64,000 nucleotides of DNA from Fuerstiella marisgermanici (GTDB taxonomy: Bacteria; Planctomycetota; Planctomycetia; Planctomycetales; Planctomycetaceae): NCBI RefSeq assembly GCF_001983935.1, contig NZ_CP017641.1, forward strand, positions 7,614,001 through 7,678,000, read 5' to 3'. How positions within the stretch are numbered: position 1 is the stretch's first letter; every line of letters begins with the position of its first letter. The position numbers and the translations under genes are program-made. Shown here in pieces: positions 1,848 through 60,479 of this stretch. The notes under the pieces were generated by a model that did no database searches, was not told the DNA's origin, and was given only the letters and a program-made list of their open reading frames with translations.

Positions 1848-3278
1848 ATGGCTTTTCCCCGAATATCGTCTTACAAAAATGTTGACCAGTTTCGCGAACG
1901 CCTCAGCGAACTCAGCCTGGACCTGCCGGTGGACGACGAGGTGCAGTCCGGAGACGATGCCGTGCTGGCTCAGCCGCTGGTGAGCAAAGCGGGGCTGATT
2001 GGCAACCGATTTTGCATTCTTCCCATGGAAGGCTGGGACGGCACGGCTGACGGCAAGCCCACGGACCTCACTCGTCGTCGCTGGCAGAACTTCGGTCTAA
2101 GCGGCGCGAAACTGATCTGGGGTGGCGAAGCCGTGGCCGTCCGGCATGATGGGCGAGCTAACCCGAATCAATTGCTCATTAACGATACCAACCTGAAGGA
2201 CATCGAAAGTCTTCGGACACTTCTGGTCGCGACGCATGCGGAGCACTTTTCCAAGACCGACGATCTGTGCGTTGGTTTGCAACTCACTCATTCCGGTCGT
2301 TACGCCAAGCCCAACGACAAACACACGGCAGAACCACGCATTGCGTACCGACATTCGGTGCTCGATCAGCGACTCGGCATCGACAGCGATGACAAGTTGT
2401 TAACCGACGACGACCTCAAGCAGCTGATCGATGACTTCGTGGCCGCCTGCGTTCTGGCTCAGAAGGCCAGCTTTGCATGGGTCGACGTGAAACACTGTCA
2501 CGGGTATCTCGGCCATGAACTGCTTTCTGGTTTCGACCGCGATGGTGAGTTCGGTGGCAGCCTGGAGAATCGCACACGGTTCCTACGCAACATCGTGGCG
2601 GGTATTCGCAGCGAAGCGCCTGGCCTGGAAATCGGCGTGCGAGTCAGCGTGTTCGACTTTGTGCCGTTCGAACCGGGCGACAACGAAGAACGTACGGGTA
2701 TACCATCGGCGACTGCACCTTATCAACATGCCTTCGGCGGCGATGGCAGTGGCCTGGGAATCGATCTGAGCGAGCCTTCAAAATTCGTCGACCTGCTGGA
2801 AGAGCTGGACATCGATCTGTTGTGCACGACCTGCGGCAGTCCTTACTACAACCCTCATATACAACGCCCGGCTATCTTTCCGCCGTCGGACGGGTATCAA
2901 CCGCCGGAAGATCCGCTGGTGGGAGTCCACCGTCAGATCGCCGCAACCGCGGAACTGAAAGCGAAGCACCCGAGCATGATCGTCGCCGGCACTGGCTATT
3001 CGTACCTGCAGGAATGGTTGCCAAACGTCGGGCAGGCGGTCGTGAAAAACAGCATGGCGGACTCCGTTGGCCTCGGCCGCATGGTGCTGTCATATCCCGA
3101 ACTGCCCGCCGACGTGCTGGCCGGAAAGGTGATGGCTCGGAAGAAAATCTGCCGCACGTTCAGTGACTGCACAACGGCACCAAGAAACGGCATCGTCTCC
3201 GGCTGCTATCCGCTCGATCCGTTCTACAAAGCAATGCCCGAACGTGAGCAGTTGCTGGCGATAAAGGCAGACATGTGA
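1848..3278 (+). CDS. NADH:flavin oxidoreductase, Old Yellow Enzyme family
   Basis: The protein has 476 residues if started at the ATG at 1848 (MAFPRISSYKN); an earlier in-frame start at 1809 would add 13 residues with no family resemblance. It has features of FMN-dependent Old Yellow Enzyme/2,4-dienoyl-CoA-reductase-type barrels: PMEGWDG near the N-terminus, LQLTHSGRYAKP in the middle, and the HGYLGHELLSGFDRDGEFGG segment that in this family lines the active site, followed by SLENRTRFL. A C-terminal FMN phosphate-binding region (GLGRMVLSYPELP) is also recognisable. Members reduce activated C=C bonds using NAD(P)H in the cytoplasm. There is no Fe-S/FAD extension, so it is the single-domain type. 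It stands alone, divergent from the DUF1592 gene. The substrate cannot be predicted. Confidence 0.9.
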   Translation: MAFPRISSYKNVDQFRERLSELSLDLPVDDEVQSGDDAVLAQPLVSKAGLIGNRFCILPMEGWDGTADGKPTDLTRRRWQNFGLSGAKLIWGGEAVAVRHDGRANPNQLLINDTNLKDIESLRTLLVATHAEHFSKTDDLCVGLQLTHSGRYAKPNDKHTAEPRIAYRHSVLDQRLGIDSDDKLLTDDDLKQLIDDFVAACVLAQKASFAWVDVKHCHGYLGHELLSGFDRDGEFGGSLENRTRFLRNIVAGIRSEAPGLEIGVRVSVFDFVPFEPGDNEERTGIPSATAPYQHAFGGDGSGLGIDLSEPSKFVDLLEELDIDLLCTTCGSPYYNPHIQRPAIFPPSDGYQPPEDPLVGVHRQIAATAELKAKHPSMIVAGTGYSYLQEWLPNVGQAVVKNSMADSVGLGRMVLSYPELPADVLAGKVMARKKICRTFSDCTTAPRNGIVSGCYPLDPFYKAMPEREQLLAIKADM

Positions 3279-3296
3279 GGATCGTAGCTTGAGCAA

Positions 3297-3491
3297 GGGG
3301 CAACGCCCCGCTCGTTTACCTGGCCCAGCCCAACGGGCTGGGTTCCCGTCCAATATACGTCGAAGGGCCAACGGCCCGGCAGTTTGGTCGAGCGACGATG
3401 TGCAAATGGTCGGACCTTCGGCGCTACGCGGGGCGTCATCCAGCTCCCAGCCCGTTGGGCTGGGCTATGCGAATCGCTGGGCCGTTGGCCC
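3297..3491. repeat. cluster of five short palindromes (REP-like)
   Basis: This gene-free stretch between 3279 and 3619 holds five perfect short hairpins: GGGGC-AAC-GCCCC (3297-3309), CCCAGCCC-AAC-GGGCTGGG (3324-3342), GGGCC-AAC-GGCCC (3365-3377), CCCAGCCC-GTT-GGGCTGGG (3447-3465) and GGGCC-GTT-GGCCC (3479-3491). The first three carry an AAC loop. The last two are exact reverse complements of the second and third. Frames through this region give PAQRAG-like peptides that are artefacts of the repeat rather than genes. The cluster directly follows the oxidoreductase stop codon and could act as a transcript-end structure or be a REP-type mobile repeat. Confidence 0.8.
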
Positions 3492-51303: not shown

Positions 51304-51811
51304 ATTGCCTCCAGTGTGGCAATTCGCCGCCAGCGTGATTAAAGAATGATGGAGGTTATCGCTGTCTTGCAGCCGGCACAAATTGCGCGACATATATTGT
51401 ACTGTGGCCCGCTAGCGAAGCCAGTTCCGCATTGGCCCCGCCATTGCGGGCGAATCCTTGAGGCGTGGCCGTAGCAACAAGGTTGTTGCATTCATCGCGT
51501 GCTGCCTTCAAGCAAGAAAAACTATTGATTTCTACTTACTAGCTATTCGATTTACAGCTGTCCTGCTAGGCGAGTTCTTCGCTGGACTGGAAGAAGGTGC
51601 CGACTGTGAGATTGTGAATGTTGGTAACCACTGGTTGACTACAAGCCTGCTCGCGAGTGCTACGCTGCCAACGTCTTAGGTAAATTGGAGGTTGATAGTC
51701 CGACTCGGAGTGATCTCGCTACAGTTGCCGGCAATTCTATAATTCCTCCTGTTTTCTGAAGAAGTCCCCTGCCCTGCGGCGTGTTAATTCTGACGGCACG
51801 CATGTCAGACA
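51304..51811. other. intergenic stretch upstream of the ECF operon
   Basis: A perfect TATAAT lies at 51738-51743, about 70 bases before the ECF sigma ATG, but there is no clear -35 element at the right distance. No open frame here resembles a known protein, and nothing else is recognised. Confidence 0.35.
51738..51743 (+). promoter_or_regulatory. candidate -10 box (TATAAT) of the ECF sigma operon
   Basis: This perfect -10 consensus is in the leader of the ECF sigma gene. A recognisable -35 element is missing, so an activator-dependent or chance match is possible. Confidence 0.3.
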
Positions 51812-52327
51812 ATGAATCGAGCGGCAAGTTTGCGGGATGAACTGGAAAATACATACCGTTCGCACCGTCAGGGTTTGTTTTCCCTGGCGATGTCGATCAC
51901 AGGATGTCGCCAGTCGGCCGAAGATGCCGTGCATTCGGCGTTCGAACGTTTGTGCCGCTCCACCAGACCGGACGGGGATGTCGTGAACTATGTGTTTGCG
52001 GCCGTGCGCAACGCGGCTCGCGATGCACTACGTTCGAATCAACGCGCCGCAAAATCGCGCGAGTCCATTTTCAACGGGGCTGTTTCGGACGGCACGGAGA
52101 CTACTGATCCAGCCAGCGACGTGTTGAACGCGGAACGTGACCAGATCCTTCGAGCTGCCATGGAAGATCTTGGCGACGATGCTCGTGAAGTTGTGGTGAT
52201 GAAGATTTTTGCAGAACTGACGTTCGATGCGATCGGTGAGGTGCTAAATCAACCGGCGAAGACCGTAGCGACTCGGTATCGTCGAGCGTTAATCAGACTG
52301 GAAGAAAAACTGCGAGGTCAGTTATGA
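51812..52327 (+). CDS. ECF sigma factor of the haem-linked pair
   Basis: The protein has 171 residues from ATG. Region 2 spans residues about 10-80 (NTYRSHRQGLFSLAMSITGCRQSAEDAVHSAFERLCR, then VVNYVFAAVRNAARDALRS). Region 4 runs from about 115 to 165 (LRAAMEDLGDDAREVVVMKIFAELTFDAIGEVLNQPAKTVATRYRRALIRLEEKL), with a helix-turn-helix. The stop codon overlaps the start of the next gene (ATGA), so the pair is translationally coupled, the classical layout of an ECF sigma with its anti-sigma. No known regulated target promoter can be read here. Confidence 0.92.
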   Translation: MNRAASLRDELENTYRSHRQGLFSLAMSITGCRQSAEDAVHSAFERLCRSTRPDGDVVNYVFAAVRNAARDALRSNQRAAKSRESIFNGAVSDGTETTDPASDVLNAERDQILRAAMEDLGDDAREVVVMKIFAELTFDAIGEVLNQPAKTVATRYRRALIRLEEKLRGQL

Positions 52328-52848
52328 CAGAGTCACGTATCGAAGATTTGCTGCGGCAGATGCCGCTGGCCGAACCATCAACGGAACTGGATGGACGCGT
52401 CACCGCGTCATTGAACGCGGCACCAGTCGCAAGCGTGCTGCGCGGTCGACGTTCGGTTTCGTGGAGTGTGCTGACGGCTGTCGCGGTGTTGTGTTTGCTG
52501 ATTGGAGCGGTGGCTGGCCATTTAACGGGCAGTAACCAGGCGATGGCCGGAGCGTCTTCAGCATCACCACAGTCTGAACCAGATTCGACTTCACAAAGCG
52601 ATGCTGCAGTAGGTGTGCGGATTGTTGAAATCACGAACGATGATGTCTTGCAGCGAGTTCAGGGGCCGGGGGTTGCAATGCTGTGTGCGATGAAACTCAT
52701 CGGTTCCAATGCCACAAACGAACAATGCCTGCAATGTCACGCGGGGTTGCCGGACGCGAAAATGCGGTTTCGTGAACAACACATGAATGACGCTCGATTT
52801 GCCACTTGCATGTGGTGTCACGAAACCGACGAAACGGCCCGCCCGTAA
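52324..52848 (+). CDS. membrane protein with two CxxCH motifs, candidate haem-sensing anti-sigma factor
   Basis: The protein has 174 residues, overlapping the sigma gene by four bases. A short cytoplasmic N-terminus (about 45 residues, MTESRIEDLLRQMPLAEPSTELDGRVTASL) precedes one membrane helix (about 48-66, SVLTAVAVLCLLIGAVAG). The periplasmic part of about 105 residues ends with two c-type haem motifs: CLQCH (135-139) and CMWCH (162-166). No zinc-binding HxxxCxxC anti-sigma motif was seen in the N-terminus. Location and coupling suggest an anti-sigma factor; the haem sites suggest redox or gas sensing. A mono- or diheme electron carrier without regulatory role is the alternative. Confidence 0.85.
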   Translation: MTESRIEDLLRQMPLAEPSTELDGRVTASLNAAPVASVLRGRRSVSWSVLTAVAVLCLLIGAVAGHLTGSNQAMAGASSASPQSEPDSTSQSDAAVGVRIVEITNDDVLQRVQGPGVAMLCAMKLIGSNATNEQCLQCHAGLPDAKMRFREQHMNDARFATCMWCHETDETARP

Positions 52849-52855
52849 CTCAATT

Positions 52856-54979
52856 TCATTTGGCGGTGAAAATATCAACCGTGCCATCCCAGGTCACAAC
52901 GCTGTCGCTCGCCGATGCGTTTTGGCCTGATGGGATTTTCAGCAGTGCGGGCAGGTCGCCATATTTGACGGCTCCGGGAAGGAAGTCAGCGTGTTTCCAA
53001 CTGGTCAGATTCGCAAAGCGGAAGTCACGGTTGTCGACGGCGACTGTTTTGAACTCGTCGCCCGCGATCACTCGGGCCGCCGCCAAAAGCGGAGTTCCAC
53101 CGTTGACTCCCAAAGCGTGCAATGCTTTCGGGCTGTGTTCGTCGCCATTGATCCAGGCCGTGACGGTCAGGATGTCGTGAACTCGGCGAGCAAACACGGT
53201 GTCGTTGTAGCAGTAGGTGTAACCAGCGAATTGTCGCGGGTTGGCAACGGTCGGATTTTCTTTCAGGGCCACGCCATTGGTCGTGAACTCGCCCTGACCG
53301 TACAGATCGACTCCAACAACAGAAAATCCCTGGTCGATCAGTTTCAGCAGGTCGGCGTGAGGCTTCCCATTCGGAAACATGCCCGCTTTGCCCTGGCCAT
53401 CGATCCACAGAACGACCTGTTGATTCCATTCAACGGCTTTCGGGTAAACCGAAACGATGGGCAGTTGTTCGCCTTCGGTGGTCAAGGTGATGATGTCACC
53501 AAATTCCCAGTAGCCGGCTCGTTCTTCTTTCCACACTTTGGTGCGCTGCACGTCTTCCGACTTCGGCACGTTGCGGCCGATCAGAGTTTCCCATGCAGTG
53601 CGGATCGTGCTGAAGTAGTTTTGAGTTTCGGTGTCGCCTTCAGGGGCGTGATGGTGCAGCGCGTCGAGATCGCGTTCGTTCAGTTGCTGCAGCAGTTTTC
53701 GTTCGTAATCGGCGCCGCCATCGGGAGCCGGATGTTCATCGTTCCAAACCGTGTATTCTTCGGGCGTCAGTGGCTTCCAGTCCTGTTCGATGATCGGTTT
53801 TTCAAAGCCGAGATCCATGTGTTTGTTGAACCATTCGTACATGATTTTGCGTGTGACAGCGTTGTAGTTGTGAGGGAAGTGCAACATCGGTTCGCAGGAA
53901 ACGTTGTCGGGCACGCCGAGCATCGCGTACAGCTTCTGCAGTTCCGGATAACCTTTGGTCATCATTTCTTTGGTCCAGTCGTTGGCCGCCGTCATCCCCT
54001 GTGGTTTCGGAGCAAACAACGCCGCGAGTTCCACGTTGCCGGTGCCAACTCGCAGCAGGCTGCAGTTTTCGCACGTGCAACCGCCCTGCATGCTGGTGGA
54101 CACCATGCCGTTGGGGAATCCTGCGATGTGACGGTCGTCGATGGCTCCCAGCAGAATGGTTTGAGTTCCGCCGCCGCTGCCACCCGTGACTGCCATGCGA
54201 GAGGCGTCGACATCTGGCAGGCTTTCCAGAAAGTCGAGTCCTCGGACGCAGTTCCACGTTTGCAGACCAAGAATACTGTGCAGTCGCGATTCTGCCTGAG
54301 GACTGTAGAAGCCCCAGCGATCGTTGGTTTCGAATTCGGGGCGTGGCTTGCCGTATCCGTGGGCCACCTGACGCGAAATCTGATGACTGTCAACGTAGCC
54401 CAGCATGTCAAAAATAAACGTCACGCAACCCATGCGAGCCAATTGGGCACACCGCGCCAGCTTGGGGAAACGTCCGGACCGTTTGTGAAGTTCAGCACCG
54501 CTTTTGATCAACTCATCCATCTTCGCTTCGCCGTAATCCTGTTGCCGTCCGCCGTGACCGTGAGGACACAACACGGCTGGACGTTTCGAAGTGGCTTCGC
54601 CGTCGGGACGGAACAACAAGCCGCTGACAAAGTGGCCAGGCAGGCTTTCGAAGTACACTTTCTCGACTGTGAATCCGTCGCGTTGAACTTTGCCGTGAAT
54701 GACAGTGTTCAGTGGCGTTTTTTCCGGCATGGGGTACAGGCCGGTTGCGATCTGGACGCGGAGTTTGAGTTCCGCCTTTCGCTGTTCCCATTCGGCCTTC
54801 GACGCGGGTACTTCAAACGGAAAGTAGCCATTCAGGTCTTTAGGAGCTTTCAGCCGCACGTCGTCCGGTTGTTGACCGACGTCGAAGACTCGGTGCTGAG
54901 CGGGGTCGCCGTCGGCCGTCGCATGGGCGATGGTCGTCGCAGAAATGGCAAACAGCAGGAAAAGACGGGTATTTTGCAT
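52856..54979 (-). CDS. acetyl-xylan-esterase-like alpha/beta hydrolase
   Basis: The protein has 707 residues from the ATG at 54979, directly before a signal peptide (LFLLFAISATTIAHA); an upstream in-frame extension to 55189 is not supported. The first hydrolase half has RPAVLCPHGHGG, the nucleophile S268 in MAVTGGSGGGTQT, and a possible lid with CTCENCSLLRVGTGNVEL. The second half (from about 480) contains a further alpha/beta-like region (VVLWIDGQGKAGMF, FSVVGVDLYGQGEF, ALGVNGGTPLL) without an obvious serine nucleophile, so it may be a non-catalytic duplicate. Family members deacetylate plant or algal polysaccharides. Together with the sulfatases it fits polysaccharide breakdown in the periplasm. 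Confidence 0.85.
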   Translation of the reverse strand: MQNTRLFLLFAISATTIAHATADGDPAQHRVFDVGQQPDDVRLKAPKDLNGYFPFEVPASKAEWEQRKAELKLRVQIATGLYPMPEKTPLNTVIHGKVQRDGFTVEKVYFESLPGHFVSGLLFRPDGEATSKRPAVLCPHGHGGRQQDYGEAKMDELIKSGAELHKRSGRFPKLARCAQLARMGCVTFIFDMLGYVDSHQISRQVAHGYGKPRPEFETNDRWGFYSPQAESRLHSILGLQTWNCVRGLDFLESLPDVDASRMAVTGGSGGGTQTILLGAIDDRHIAGFPNGMVSTSMQGGCTCENCSLLRVGTGNVELAALFAPKPQGMTAANDWTKEMMTKGYPELQKLYAMLGVPDNVSCEPMLHFPHNYNAVTRKIMYEWFNKHMDLGFEKPIIEQDWKPLTPEEYTVWNDEHPAPDGGADYERKLLQQLNERDLDALHHHAPEGDTETQNYFSTIRTAWETLIGRNVPKSEDVQRTKVWKEERAGYWEFGDIITLTTEGEQLPIVSVYPKAVEWNQQVVLWIDGQGKAGMFPNGKPHADLLKLIDQGFSVVGVDLYGQGEFTTNGVALKENPTVANPRQFAGYTYCYNDTVFARRVHDILTVTAWINGDEHSPKALHALGVNGGTPLLAAARVIAGDEFKTVAVDNRDFRFANLTSWKHADFLPGAVKYGDLPALLKIPSGQNASASDSVVTWDGTVDIFTAK

Positions 54980-55371
54980 GGCGGGAGTCTCAAAATCAGG
55001 AGGCGGGACGAGGGTTGGCTCTTGCCGAAACGGTGTCGGTACAAGTTGCGCAATCGCTACAGTTTGTATCGTAGCGAGAACGAATTCCAACCCAAACCAA
55101 CGGCGGAAGGGTGCCGAAGTTTCATCCGCCGTAGTGTGGAGCTCGGGGGCGACGCCGGGCTCGGATTTCGGGACCGCTGGAATTCTCATTCCGGCGAGCC
55201 AACCGGGCGGCGCATGATTTTCGGTCGATTCGTGCGTACAATACGTGGTTCCTGCCTTTCGAATGCCGCGAGCCGACTTCGGCCAACCAGTTTTGACTCA
55301 GCGGCGGTCCATTCGTTTCCCACCGCTTAATTTCGCATTCCTGCCCACCTGACGGTCATTGCTCCGTATTT
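54980..55371. other. intergenic stretch with no recognised feature
   Basis: It lies between the divergent hydrolase gene and the lipoprotein gene. Frames on both strands run through parts of it, but they are extensions of shadows or upstream extensions of genes without family support. Confidence 0.35.
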
Positions 55372-55929
55372 ATGTCTGCAGTTTTTATTAGCCCCAAAGC
55401 TACGGTGTTGCTGGTCCTTTTTCTGTTTGTCGGCTGCGGGCCGGAAGCCGAGATTCGCCAGTACACGATCAAATCCGAAAACGAACGCGTCTTCACCAGC
55501 GATCTGCTCCGTGACGAATTCGGCTCAATCCCATTTGAGTGGGACGTGCCCGACGAATGGACGATCGCAGAGAACGACCAGTTCAGCAAAGTGGCATGGA
55601 GCGTCGGGCCGAAAGCTGAGCAGGTTCGGATCACGCTTAGCGACCTGCCCATCGCCGCCGGACTCGTGCCGCAGTTGAATCGCTGGCGCGGGCAGATTTC
55701 GATTGAACTGGATTCCAAAGACGATCCGATGGACGGCACGGAAACGCTGAAGGTCGGCGACATTGACGCGACATACGTTGATTTCAAAGGCCCCGACGCA
55801 ACAATTTTGGGGCTGTTGATTCCCTTCGAAAGCAAGATGTGGATTTTTAAGCTGACCGGCAGCAATGAACTGGTGGACCAACAGAGAGATGCGTTTCGGA
55901 AGTTCGCAGAAAGCGTCACGGTTCCGTAG
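55372..55929 (+). CDS. hypothetical lipoprotein
   Basis: The protein has 185 residues. The N-terminus has a lipoprotein signal (TVLLVLFLFVGCGPE) with the lipobox cysteine at about residue 22, so it should be lipidated and anchored on the outer face of a membrane. The remainder is a mixed alpha/beta domain (IPFEWDVPDEWTIAENDQFSKVAW, then VGDIDATYVDFKG, then MWIFKLTGSNELVDQQRDAF), resembling small planctomycete proteins found beside cytochrome c biogenesis genes. It precedes the CcsBA fusion by 191 bases on the same strand and may assist in cytochrome c maturation; this is inference from position. Confidence 0.75.
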   Translation: MSAVFISPKATVLLVLFLFVGCGPEAEIRQYTIKSENERVFTSDLLRDEFGSIPFEWDVPDEWTIAENDQFSKVAWSVGPKAEQVRITLSDLPIAAGLVPQLNRWRGQISIELDSKDDPMDGTETLKVGDIDATYVDFKGPDATILGLLIPFESKMWIFKLTGSNELVDQQRDAFRKFAESVTVP

Positions 55930-56120: not shown

Positions 56121-59100
56121 ATGTCATCAACAGCACTCCCCGGCGACCTGTCTTCCCGTGAGCGCGCGAGCGCGGGCGAGGATTCAATCACGGCGTTTAC
56201 GTGGAAGTGCATCTATGCACTCGCGTCGCTGAAGCTGACGTGCGTGATGTTCCTGCTGGGAATGTTTGTCGTGTTCGTGGGCAGTTTGGCTCAGGCTCGA
56301 CGCGACGTCTGGCTGGTGGTTGGACAATACTTCCGCACCTACGTGGCGTGGATCGACGTGGCCGACTTCTTTCCACCATCGATGTTCCCGAGCCTCGTTG
56401 ACTACGATTGGAATTCGCTTGGTGCGCTACGGATGATCCCGTTCCCCGGCGGCTGGACGATCGGCTGGATCATGCTGGCGAACCTTACGGCCGCTCACCT
56501 GCTGCGATTTAAGATTCGGGCCGTTGGTGGGAAGTTTGCAGCGGGCATCGGCATCGCCGCTTTGGGAATTCTGTTGACGGCTGCGGTCGTGATCACTGGC
56601 AATCAACAGACGGGCGTTGAACACGGCGATTCCGTCCTGTCTCCCATGCAGATCTGGTACCTGATGCTGGGCGTTTTGGGAGTGGCTTCCGTCGTGCCTT
56701 TGGCCGTTGCGTTTACGAAATCGAGTGTGTCAAAACCCGAACGGATTCTGTTGGGCGTCATCGGCGTCCTGCTGGGCGGAGTGCTGGCCTACTTCGTGAT
56801 CGGTGGCGAGGACGCTCGCTTGAATCTTTCGTCGATGCGGATTCTATGGCAGCTGCTGAAAGGCACTGCTTGTGCGGTTGTGATGTTGATCGGAAGCAAT
56901 CTGCTGTTTGGCAAACGAGGCGGCATTGTGCTGCTGCATGTCGGCGTGGCGCTGCTGATGTTCAGCGAATTGCAGGTGGGTTTCTACGCCAAAGAAAACA
57001 TGCTGACTCTGCAGGAAGGTCAAACGTCGTCCTTCATGCGAGACACCCGTGAACGCGAGTTGGCAATCGTGCACCGCGACGGCGACGAAGAGCACGTGAC
57101 CGCCATCCCTGAAGCACGTCTGGTCGCGGCTGGCGAAGCGACCGATGCCGAGGACAAAATCATTCCGCTGAAGGATCTGCCGTTCGTTGTGCGAGTCGAA
57201 TCCTTCCTCCGCAACAGCCGTTTGCGACCGATGCTGCCGGACGACGATAAGCAGGCCACGAGCGGTCTCGGCACGTTTGCGGCGCCCGTGGAAATTGACC
57301 CTGTCACGGGCATGGATGATTCGCATGATATGAGTTCTCTGCGAATCACGCTGCTGGATGCGGAAAGCGGCAAAGAACTGGACACTCTGCTGTGTGCTCA
57401 GGACGTCAGCGAAATGCGTTCGGTGCCGATTGCTGAACAAGCGACCGTCGGCGACGACGACTATCAGTTCTATCTGCGATTCCAGCGCAACTACAAAGAT
57501 TACGAAGTCGAACTGCTGGACGTCAGTCGCACCAACTACGTGGGATCAGCTACACCGCGAGACTACCGTTCAAAGATCGTGATCCGCGACAGCGAAACGG
57601 GGGAAGCGGAAGAGTACGCGTTGTGGATGAACAACCCACTTCGATACAAGGGCGAAACGTTTTACCAAAGCGGTTACAACGAACTGCCGAACGGTACAGA
57701 AATGACCACGCTGTCAGTGGTGCGAAACACCGGCTGGATGCTGCCGTATATCGCGTGCATGATTGTGGCGGTCGGCATGTTCGCTCAGTTTGGTCAGACG
57801 CTCGGCCGGTACCTGTCGCGTCTTGATCGAACGGGCGATCCTTCGCCCCGCCCCGTGGTCGATGGCGGCGCTTCAAGTCTGCCTGAAGGGATTCGCGGTT
57901 CGTCCGCTTCGGAAGCCGCTGCGGTTGCATTGGCGAAAGTTGCTGCGAAGGAAAATGAAGAGCCCGAACAAAAATCTATCTGGCCAATTGTCGTTCCCAT
58001 CTTTCTGGTGCTGCTAAGTGCCGGCTGGTTGGCGGGTAAAACTCGCACGCCAAAACCAAATCCGGATTCAATGAACCTGTACGGGTTTGCTCAGATTCCG
58101 GTGGCATGGAAGGGGCGAGCTCAACCGGTGGATTCGTTCGCTCGCACACAACTATTGATGACGTCACACAAGTCGACCTTCCGAGGCGAACTTAGCGCGG
58201 GCGAACTGGATCACCCGGAAAAGCGGGAAGAGATTCTGGCAGCAGTGGCCAAGTACTGGCCTTCGGTAGATGCCGAGGAACTCGAAGATTTTTCCGGTGA
58301 ATACAACGACTGGATCGAACGCATCATGAAGGACACGTCGTCAGGACGGGAAGCGGTCGAGGAACGGATGCGGGACATCATGGTGGAACGCATGCCAGCC
58401 GTACGCTGGTTTCTGGACGTGGCCGCTCGGCCCGAACTGGCCAAGCGACATCGCATCATCAAGATCGACGATGACCAGGTGCTGTCTCTCCTGGGGCTCG
58501 AAAAACGAGCCGGGCTGACGTATTCCGTTGACGAAGTTCAGGAGAATCTGGAAGAGCTGCAGGATATCAATCGCGAAGGTCTGAAGCTGGAGATGGCGGA
58601 TCAACAGCACCGCATGACTCAGCTGCAACGCCGCGTCGTGGAACTGTTCCGCACGGTCGGTCGAGTTGATTCTTTGCAGAATATTTTCCTTGTCCGTGAT
58701 TCCGAAAGCCTGCTGGATTCCGTGGTCAAAGCCTGGTGGGTGTTGAATCGCCTGGGCGACAGTCCTGCAATTATGGCTGTGCCGACCGGTTCGGAGAACG
58801 AACAACGAAGTTGGGAAACATTGATTGCGGCGAGTGCTTTGCGGAACGTGTCAAAGGAATTTCGCGATGCCGATTTGGACAGTCGTGATCAGGTTGAAAA
58901 CTATGTGAGCAACGTGCTGCCACGCAAACTAGTGACGGACGCGGTGGCTGGCAGCGTGGCGATTCTGAAGTCGTCCGAAGCTGCGAAGGCCAAAGACGCG
59001 GGCGAAGAGATGGCTGCCGACGCGGTGACAACGAAGGCAAAAGCCGCTGCGGAATCGATGGAAGATCCGTTCCTGAAGAAGGTGCTGACCATCATCGGCG

Positions 59101-60479
59101 ATGCCGAACCTGAGGAAACGGCTGAACAGATGCTGGCCGATGTGTCTGACGATGAGGTTCGGCAGATTGCCAGCGAACGCATTTCGTCTGAGATGTTCCA
59201 GGTGTTTGAAGAACTGCGTCAGAACGGTTCGGATAAGCGTCTGGCGACAATTCGCACCAACCTGCAGGCCGTCGGCGGCGACGACGAAGCGGAGTTGGCA
59301 GTCAGGATGAACAGTGAATTGCTCAAGGTCGTGCTGGACGATCTGGACAAACGCGTGGGTGGTCTGATCTACGGTGACGATGGCTTCGAAGCGTTCGAGC
59401 AGGGTTCCGAATCGATGATCAACATTCTGACCGCATGGCGCGAAGGCGATGTGCAATCCTTTAACAGCAACGTGTCAGAATACCGCGAATATCTGTCCGC
59501 TCATCCGTTGCCACACGTCAATGCGTCACTGGTTAGCGAAGAAGCGTTCTTCAATTACTTCGAACCATTCATGAAGGCGATTTATCTGTATCTGCCGGTG
59601 ATGGTGTTGTCATTCTTAAGCTGGATCGTGTGGCCGAAGACGTTGCGGCGCAGTGCATTTTGGTTGATGGGGCTGGCGTTCGTTGTACACACGGTGGCGC
59701 TATTGATGCGCATGCATATTTCCGGGCGTCCACCGGTGACGAATCTATATTCTTCGGCCATCTTCATTGGCTGGGCCGTAGTCGGCGCCGGGTTCTTTGT
59801 CGAGAAGCTATTGAAAAACGGCATCGGCAATATTCTGGGCGCGTCGGTTGGCATGGCGACGCTGGTGATCGCTCATTATCTCGCTCGTGATGAAGGCGAC
59901 ACGATGGGCGTTATGCAGGCGGTGCTGGACACGACCTTCTGGCTGGCGACTCATGTGGTCTGTATCACGCTGGGGTACGCGGCCACGTTTTTAGCAGGAG
60001 CGATGGCAATCGCATACTGCTTTATGGCGAACTTCGGCGGCCCCAAAGCCAAGGCCGATCTGCCGAAGCTTGGCAAGATGATTTACGGCGTGCTGTGCTT
60101 CGCCGTGTTCTTCAGTCTGGTCGGAACGGTTCTCGGCGGACTGTGGGCCGACGATTCATGGGGCCGTTTTTGGGGCTGGGATCCGAAGGAAAACGGAGCG
60201 ATGCTGATCGTGATGTGGAACGCATTGATCCTGCACGCTCGCTGGGACAAGATGATCCGCGACTACGGCACGGCTGTGCTGGCAATGTTCGGCAACATCG
60301 TGACGGCGTGGAGCTGGTTTGGCGTGAACGAACTGAAAGCCGGTCTGCACACCTACGGCTTCACCGAAGGCCGGTTGCTGGCTTTGTTGGTGTTCATGTC
60401 ACTGCAGACCATCATCATTGCCGGTGCCATGATTCCGGCGATTGGCAAGTCGGCGAATGACAGGATTGAACCGGTGTAG
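56121..60479 (+). CDS. fused cytochrome c biogenesis protein ResB-CcsA (CcsBA)
   Basis: The protein has 1452 residues from ATG, with AGGA 8-9 bases upstream. The N-terminal ResB-like part (1-570) has several membrane helices and a soluble loop (LRITLLDAESGKELDTL, YKGETFYQSGYNELPNG). A second segment starts with IWPIVVPIFLVLLSAGWLAG and IPVAWKGRAQPVDSFARTQLL, a phrase typical of fused CcsBA proteins. Then a helical, charged domain of about 450 residues (about 690-1130) without membrane helices follows. The C-terminal CcsA half (1150-1452) has the haem-handling tryptophan-rich motif WGRFWGWDPKENGA and eight or so helices. It exports haem and attaches it to CxxCH proteins on the outer face, matching the many haem proteins in this genome. 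Confidence 0.93.
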   Translation: MSSTALPGDLSSRERASAGEDSITAFTWKCIYALASLKLTCVMFLLGMFVVFVGSLAQARRDVWLVVGQYFRTYVAWIDVADFFPPSMFPSLVDYDWNSLGALRMIPFPGGWTIGWIMLANLTAAHLLRFKIRAVGGKFAAGIGIAALGILLTAAVVITGNQQTGVEHGDSVLSPMQIWYLMLGVLGVASVVPLAVAFTKSSVSKPERILLGVIGVLLGGVLAYFVIGGEDARLNLSSMRILWQLLKGTACAVVMLIGSNLLFGKRGGIVLLHVGVALLMFSELQVGFYAKENMLTLQEGQTSSFMRDTRERELAIVHRDGDEEHVTAIPEARLVAAGEATDAEDKIIPLKDLPFVVRVESFLRNSRLRPMLPDDDKQATSGLGTFAAPVEIDPVTGMDDSHDMSSLRITLLDAESGKELDTLLCAQDVSEMRSVPIAEQATVGDDDYQFYLRFQRNYKDYEVELLDVSRTNYVGSATPRDYRSKIVIRDSETGEAEEYALWMNNPLRYKGETFYQSGYNELPNGTEMTTLSVVRNTGWMLPYIACMIVAVGMFAQFGQTLGRYLSRLDRTGDPSPRPVVDGGASSLPEGIRGSSASEAAAVALAKVAAKENEEPEQKSIWPIVVPIFLVLLSAGWLAGKTRTPKPNPDSMNLYGFAQIPVAWKGRAQPVDSFARTQLLMTSHKSTFRGELSAGELDHPEKREEILAAVAKYWPSVDAEELEDFSGEYNDWIERIMKDTSSGREAVEERMRDIMVERMPAVRWFLDVAARPELAKRHRIIKIDDDQVLSLLGLEKRAGLTYSVDEVQENLEELQDINREGLKLEMADQQHRMTQLQRRVVELFRTVGRVDSLQNIFLVRDSESLLDSVVKAWWVLNRLGDSPAIMAVPTGSENEQRSWETLIAASALRNVSKEFRDADLDSRDQVENYVSNVLPRKLVTDAVAGSVAILKSSEAAKAKDAGEEMAADAVTTKAKAAAESMEDPFLKKVLTIIGDAEPEETAEQMLADVSDDEVRQIASERISSEMFQVFEELRQNGSDKRLATIRTNLQAVGGDDEAELAVRMNSELLKVVLDDLDKRVGGLIYGDDGFEAFEQGSESMINILTAWREGDVQSFNSNVSEYREYLSAHPLPHVNASLVSEEAFFNYFEPFMKAIYLYLPVMVLSFLSWIVWPKTLRRSAFWLMGLAFVVHTVALLMRMHISGRPPVTNLYSSAIFIGWAVVGAGFFVEKLLKNGIGNILGASVGMATLVIAHYLARDEGDTMGVMQAVLDTTFWLATHVVCITLGYAATFLAGAMAIAYCFMANFGGPKAKADLPKLGKMIYGVLCFAVFFSLVGTVLGGLWADDSWGRFWGWDPKENGAMLIVMWNALILHARWDKMIRDYGTAVLAMFGNIVTAWSWFGVNELKAGLHTYGFTEGRLLALLVFMSLQTIIIAGAMIPAIGKSANDRIEPV

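Follow-up and report, generated by a model that had tools for sequence, protein, structure and literature searches.

An ECF sigma factor gene in Fuerstiella marisgermanici is paired with the gene of a putative anti-sigma factor carrying c-type haem motifs

A stretch of 64,000 nucleotides, hereafter called the window, from the single 8.92 Mb contig of the Fuerstiella marisgermanici genome (G000; NZ_CP017641.1) contains an ECF sigma factor gene followed by a gene for a small membrane protein with two CxxCH motifs. The question raised by this locus is whether the second protein, hereafter called the partner, is an anti-sigma factor that senses through covalently bound c-type haem. Membership of the first protein in the ECF group was indicated by its length of 171 amino acids and by matches to Sigma70_r2 (2.4e-10; PF04542, 40.5 bits against a cut-off of 24), Sigma70_r4_2 (8.4e-8; PF08281, 32.2 bits against a cut-off of 25.7) and TIGR02937 (1.4e-23). 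The two open frames share the four bases ATGA, the sigma stop codon TGA ending at 52327 and the partner ATG starting at 52324. The partner has a single strongly hydrophobic segment (KD maximum, residues 49-67), which forms a helix at residues 47-69 in a low-confidence structure model, with three Lys/Arg in the 15 residues preceding this helix and none following it. The predicted cytoplasmic tail is about 46-48 residues long, and no His or Cys was observed in residues 1-48. In the model, two short helices precede the membrane helix and a third is placed at residues 33-39; this single-sequence model (pLDDT 52.6) was too poor for a fold search. The outer part, of about 105 residues, carries CLQCH and CMWCH toward its end. 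A preliminary description of this DNA had claimed the overlapping gene pair, a 45-residue tail with one helix and an outer domain, the two motifs, and a CcsBA gene nearby, and each of these features was recovered (Table 1).

Table 1. Positions in the window of the sigma factor and partner genes, their promoter-like site, the sites discussed within the partner, and the syntenic neighbours.
Feature	Position	Strand	Basis
ECF-type promoter-like site, TTCTGAAGAA-N16-CGTGTT	51754..51785	+	Conserved upstream of the sigma gene
ECF sigma factor, 171 aa	51812..52327	+	Pfam Sigma70_r2 and Sigma70_r4_2; TIGR02937
Putative anti-sigma factor with c-haem motifs (partner), 174 aa	52324..52848	+	Open reading frame; next to the sigma gene in orthologues
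N-terminal segment, residues 1-46, putative sigma-binding part	52324..52461	+	Invariant E7, L22, D23; recurrence in distant relatives
Membrane helix, residues ~47-69	52462..52530	+	Hydropathy; low-confidence model
Cys121, possible haem ligand	52684..52686	+	Invariant in 6 copies of the window's genus
First CxxCH (CLQCH, residues 135-139)	52726..52740	+	Seen only in the window's genus
His153, candidate second haem ligand	52780..52782	+	Invariant in 13/13 aligned partners
Second CxxCH (CMWCH, residues 162-166)	52807..52821	+	Invariant in 13/13 aligned partners, three genera
Putative lipoprotein gene, syntenic neighbour	55372..55929	+	Directly downstream of the pair in 7 relatives
CcsBA-type cytochrome c synthetase, 1452 aa, syntenic neighbour	56121..60479	+	PF01578 2e-22; PF05140 1.7e-8

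A sigma factor profile searched against 170 genomes of the family matched 22 at E<=1e-20, and the 15 whose best piece exceeded 110 bits were taken as close orthologues: six from the window's genus, the genome G025, six from genus g50 (G119, G121, G125, G130, G131, G132) and two from genus g6 (G011, G013). The next gene, in the same orientation, encodes a one-helix partner in all 15 of these, and the partner contains CxxCH in all but G025. The overlap is four bases in nine of ten loci compared, the window and G025 included, and one base in G013. The remaining seven genomes (77-94 bits) carry different ECF genes, and no in-frame next gene with CxxCH was found beside them; among these seven no partner was discernible in G079, and a CxxCH in G118, in a frame crossing the sigma gene, was set aside. 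Within the window's genus the partner was found in five of the seven other genomes (G014, G015, G016, G018, G019) and not in G017 or G020. All six copies of this genus have both CxxCH sites, with P115, V117, C121, C135, C138, H139, G141, A145, F149, H153, C162, C165 and H166 invariant in the outer part. The eight g50 and g6 partners have a single CxxCH, located 4-5 residues from the C-terminal end, and a His that precedes the first Cys by nine residues, matching the second site of the window protein (H-x8-CxxCH). Arg-Phe occurs between this His and the CxxCH in the window protein and all eight of these partners, and not throughout the window's genus. Thirteen partners were aligned, leaving out the G016 copy, which is split, and that of G025, which has no site. 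The invariant residues of this alignment are E7, L22, D23, G61, G65, H153, C162, C165 and H166, only the last four of which are outside the membrane.

The preliminary description had proposed that the pair, the overlap and both CxxCH sites be sought in homologues. Three genera share the pair, its overlap and the second site, while the first site was found only in the window's genus. Homologues without CxxCH, named there as evidence against its reading, do exist in part: the eight partners of two genera lack the first site, and G025 and the more distant relatives examined lack both. Two haem sites were ruled out as a core feature, since the first is confined to one genus. An in-frame stop was observed within the sigma gene of G015, and in G016 the sigma gene is without a long piece of region 2 and the two parts of the partner lie in different frames; either decay of the system or faulty assemblies may explain these defects. 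A search of genome contigs with the window protein gave no match, and a profile of the six g50 partners gave seven contig loci, none beyond G125, G132, G131, G130, G121, G119 and G117. The system is lineage-restricted and patchy, and in some relatives apparently decaying.

Chance origin of the CxxCH motifs was ruled out by their conservation together with shuffling of the partner protein (n=200,000), in which at least one CxxCH arose in 772 shuffles and two in none. The window genome has 68 places encoding sigma region 4, 19 of which yielded no candidate next open frame, and only the one described here is followed by a small one-helix open frame with CxxCH. Two others are followed by large open frames with CxxCH: at L157 (G000:C1 near 5909936) the sigma gene is separated by 57 bases from a frame of at least 463 residues with two such motifs, and at L192 (G000:C1 near 1839702) a 597-residue frame with one adjoins the sigma gene. 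In 12 of the 13 aligned partners Lys/Arg residues are more numerous on the N-terminal side of the helix than on its C-terminal side (the exception is L022 of G018), which places the CxxCH sites outside the membrane in the predicted topology. By motifs and predicted topology, the partner thus has CxxCH on the outer side, as in c-type cytochromes. The second site retains the entire CxxCH, and not CxxC alone, in all 13 aligned partners, and the first does so in six of six copies; judged by the alignment, the first site is a gain of a whole CxxCH in the window's genus. One CxxCH preceded by a lone His at a distance of nine residues is uncommon among monohaem proteins, a point that counts against the haem-sensor account.

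It might be argued that the Cys and His residues of an anti-sigma factor of this kind serve as metal ligands or are linked in a disulfide, with no haem, so that the protein would be a periplasmic metal or thiol-redox sensor. Haem on the partner is a prediction, and a His with CxxCH, being chemically able to form a metal site, could make one here. The CxxCH His is needless for a thiol switch, however, and yet it is kept at all aligned sites, and the window's genus has gained a second whole CxxCH. Moreover, a CxxCH outside the membrane of a CcsBA-bearing cell is expected to be haemylated. Because the full CxxCH is kept, its predicted location is outside and CcsBA is present in the genome, haem is favoured over zinc or a disulfide, and the metal or thiol reading is considered improbable.

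No known anti-sigma or cytochrome model from Pfam or NCBIfam reached its cut-off with the partner. Scores were below the cut-off for PF14522 (18.2 against 24.8 bits), PF09699 (12.2 against 20.6) and PF02085 (13.5 against 22.9), and for sCache_heme PF11845 (14.5 against 24.1 bits, residues 130-154 only). Weak cytochrome matches were seen in five of the 13 partners (best 7.8e-5, PF14522) and add little beyond the CxxCH itself. Solved structures searched with the partner profile gave no relevant match. The want of a matching anti-sigma domain model would fit a protein that is no anti-sigma factor, being instead a small membrane-anchored cytochrome co-transcribed with an ECF sigma gene by happenstance. 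An electron carrier would have no need of the N-terminal segment, though, and the start-stop overlap is conserved; the segment and helix also recur beside sigma genes with the outer domain exchanged. On this evidence a mere cytochrome is very improbable.

The recurrence was observed with partner profiles searched against 392 genomes of the phylum (alignment of the window's genus) and 397 genomes of the class (alignment of 13 partners). No further CxxCH partner was found among 30 of the matching loci examined for an adjoining sigma gene. The N-terminal segment and helix adjoin an ECF sigma gene in G025, G491, G358, G243 and G756, all with CxxCH-free outer parts, and likewise in G474; in G379 a sigma gene adjoins the profile match, and in G117 the class-wide profile found a C-terminal relic only. 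A profile of the C-terminal part matched 11 of 294 phylum genomes, the window genome included, and in the eight inspected of the ten others the matches are proteins with 3 to 18 CxxCH. Recurrence of the segment and helix with differing outer parts suggests a module consisting of a sigma factor and a minimal partner with a lineage-variable outer domain, whose c-haem form, in the genomes covered, occurs only in part of one family. A tree of 18 sigma factors placed the window's genus in one group (85/85) and g50 in another (93/88), with g6 not grouped; the position of G025 is unsettled in this tree, which therefore does not distinguish gain of CxxCH from loss. The anti-sigma reading follows from the position, the overlap, the single helix and the N-terminal segment recurring with exchanged outer domains. 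This part of the preliminary description is thus strengthened by the conserved pair and overlap and by the segment beside distant sigma genes, with the first CxxCH removed from it as a general element. That the partner is a haem-bearing anti-sigma factor, whatever the signal, is considered probable.

The genes downstream offer a functional hint. The pair is followed directly, on one strand, by the putative lipoprotein gene and ccsBA in G130, G125, G131, G121, G119, G011 and G013, and the pair and the lipoprotein gene stand together in G132. An abhydrolase gene on the opposite strand (52856-55189 in the window) lies between the pair and lipoprotein-ccsBA in G000, G015, G016 and G019 and does not intervene in the seven g50 and g6 relatives compared. 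In G014 the abhydrolase gene alone adjoins the pair, and in G018 and G025 none of the three genes adjoins it within the stretch examined. The window genome has one PF01578 match in addition to CcsBA; CcsBA itself has a long stretch uncovered by Pfam models between its ResB match (459-525) and its CcsA-type match (1207-1410). The putative lipoprotein has no NCBIfam match and a sub-threshold Pfam match only. Its gene is upstream of ccsBA in many relatives and is possibly an accessory gene of cytochrome c maturation. As a query it matched 145 of the 170 family genomes, many matches being weak and of partial length. Thirty loci upstream of the lipoprotein gene were compared, of which eight have sigma and partner genes, two have C-terminal relics of the partner (L094 in G117, 1.4e-18; L145 in G133, a weak match of 1.4e-4) and 20 have neither. 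These 20 include G000, G015, G016 and G019, where the pair is beyond the abhydrolase gene, G014, where it is on another contig, and G020 and G124, for which little or no upstream DNA was available. The simplest account of these sequences would be an ancient pair beside ccsBA that was lost several times.

The same haem-bearing anti-sigma factor could also have haem attachment itself as its signal, with CxxCH serving as a bait substrate of CcsBA. The haemylated partner would keep the sigma factor bound, and in the unhaemylated one an unfolded tail would be cut and the sigma factor released. The triggers would be haem lack, failed thiol reduction or an overloaded synthetase, and the switch would report on cytochrome c maturation. 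The synteny with ccsBA in seven relatives of two genera and a single site close to the C-terminus in g50 and g6 favour this, as does G025, one case, in which the partner without CxxCH is not beside ccsBA. Against it, the pair and ccsBA are parted in the window's genus by the abhydrolase gene on the opposite strand, the matrix scan described below found no sigma-type site before the lipoprotein gene or ccsBA, and a bait alone would hardly account for the conserved His and the second haem site. Attachment as the signal is regarded as unlikely, and slightly more so in the form of a haem-maturation checkpoint in which the outer CxxCH is the synthetase bait, transcription directly reads haem attachment outside the membrane and the second haem site would have been added later in one genus.

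Upstream of the sigma gene a promoter-like site with the cross-genus consensus TTYCTGAAKAA-N16-CGTGTA was observed. Using a matrix trained on ten sites, a site of at least 19.8 bits was found at this place in 12 of 15 sequences (the window and 14 loci); G015, which has a 17-base spacer, and G019 are among the 12 but were outside the training set, and the matrix scan found no site in G014, G119 or the relic locus of G117. Within the 64 kb of the window the site scored 25.3 bits and the next best 13.9 bits. Allowing up to two mismatches, the local pattern had two matches in the window against 1.13 expected, and at least two in 35 of 100 shuffles. A pattern match within a single window is therefore weak, and the evidence lies in conservation across genera. 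Genome searches with a profile of 11 promoter sites, the window's own included (R1), scored 150 of 2,128-3,300 first-look candidates per genome, and the following results apply to those 150. At E<=10 the window genome gave its own promoter (16.7 bits) and one 12.7-bit match inside an open frame. In 14 relatives the own promoter ranked first in nine, ranked second in one (G018) and was missed in four (G011, G014, G015, G119). Seven other matches in relatives are in or across open frames, with no common gene visible, and neither the window genome nor the 14 relatives yielded a regulon wider than the own promoter. A conserved site that the profile ranks first suggests autoregulation, the pair probably being transcribed from this site by its own sigma factor. 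In G025 another promoter-like site, of 18.7 bits (L119 9395-9426, -), faces a divergent gene for the fatty acid cis/trans isomerase CTI (PF06934, 5.6e-155), and in that genome the sigma factor may act on this gene. CTI is a c-haem enzyme. It was rejected as a shared target, with no site of at least 9 bits at the CTI locus of the window genome. In several relatives a different element ending in TAGAAT was seen by eye before the lipoprotein gene.

The account we prefer, held at not quite an even chance, is an autoregulated ECF sigma/anti-sigma switch in which the anti-sigma factor carries an outer covalent c-type haem and senses through it. From the sequences we infer haem attachment, sigma binding, signal, release and targets alike. 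The N-terminal segment of about 46 residues would hold the sigma factor at the membrane, and the CcsBA machinery would haemylate the CxxCH sites outside it. A change at the haem, by oxidation or reduction or by binding of NO, CO or O2, would alter the outer domain or expose it to proteolysis, and the released sigma factor would transcribe its own operon from the consensus site. Two features speak for a sensor of the redox or ligand state of the haem: the conserved His and the addition of a second haem site. The preferred account is weakened by G025, a close sigma orthologue with a CxxCH-free partner, and by the pair being lost or broken in several relatives with no wider regulon found. Control by redox state, oxygen or NO, as put forward in the preliminary description, may thus have an alternative in haem supply or cytochrome c maturation; a metal or thiol site has a lower probability, as has a plain cytochrome in the membrane. 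Should the partner bind both haem and the sigma factor, c-haem would also serve in bacterial signalling through sigma factors, in a protein of about 200 residues that acts as a compact switch responding to redox state, a gas or haem supply, and monitoring of cytochrome c maturation by CcsBA bacteria would become testable.

No c-haem anti-sigma factor was found in the literature searched, a scope outside which most subscription papers lie, and neither 'heme' nor 'cytochrome' occurs in the available passages of PMC8103513. Zinc class I anti-sigma factors, whose motif is given as Hx3Cx2C in the available part of PMC7406223, share with the partner a gene beside an ECF sigma gene and often one membrane helix. 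The partner differs in having an N-terminal segment without His or Cys and its Cys/His motifs on the outer side; class I identity was ruled out, because no Pfam or NCBIfam model matched and Hx3Cx2C is absent. In the class II system CnrH/CnrY, as described in the same passages (PMC7406223), a short cytoplasmic anti-sigma segment of less than 50 residues likewise precedes the membrane helix, and two helices of CnrY bind sigma regions 4 and 2. The length of the partner segment fits this class, and the partner model has two short helices and a third, but the model is poor (pLDDT 52.6). No haem is described for CnrY in those passages, and the likeness rests on length and layout. Small multihaem cytochromes (c7) share two CxxCH and a His preceding the second, whereas the partner scores below the cut-off and has a helix and N-terminal segment beside a sigma gene. 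The CxxCH-free planctomycete partners of G025, G491, G358, G243 and G756 have in common with it the ECF neighbour, a PSxxLDxRV-type segment and one helix, and differ in an outer part without CxxCH. Covalent c-haem sensing is known on kinases, chemoreceptors and second-messenger enzymes, the outputs described for sCache_heme (DUF3365/Tll0287, PF11845), with no mention of sigma factors in the available part of PMC12889525. That domain has a Cache fold and another length, yet it is an extracytoplasmic signalling domain with covalent c-haem at CxxCH, as is proposed here for the partner.
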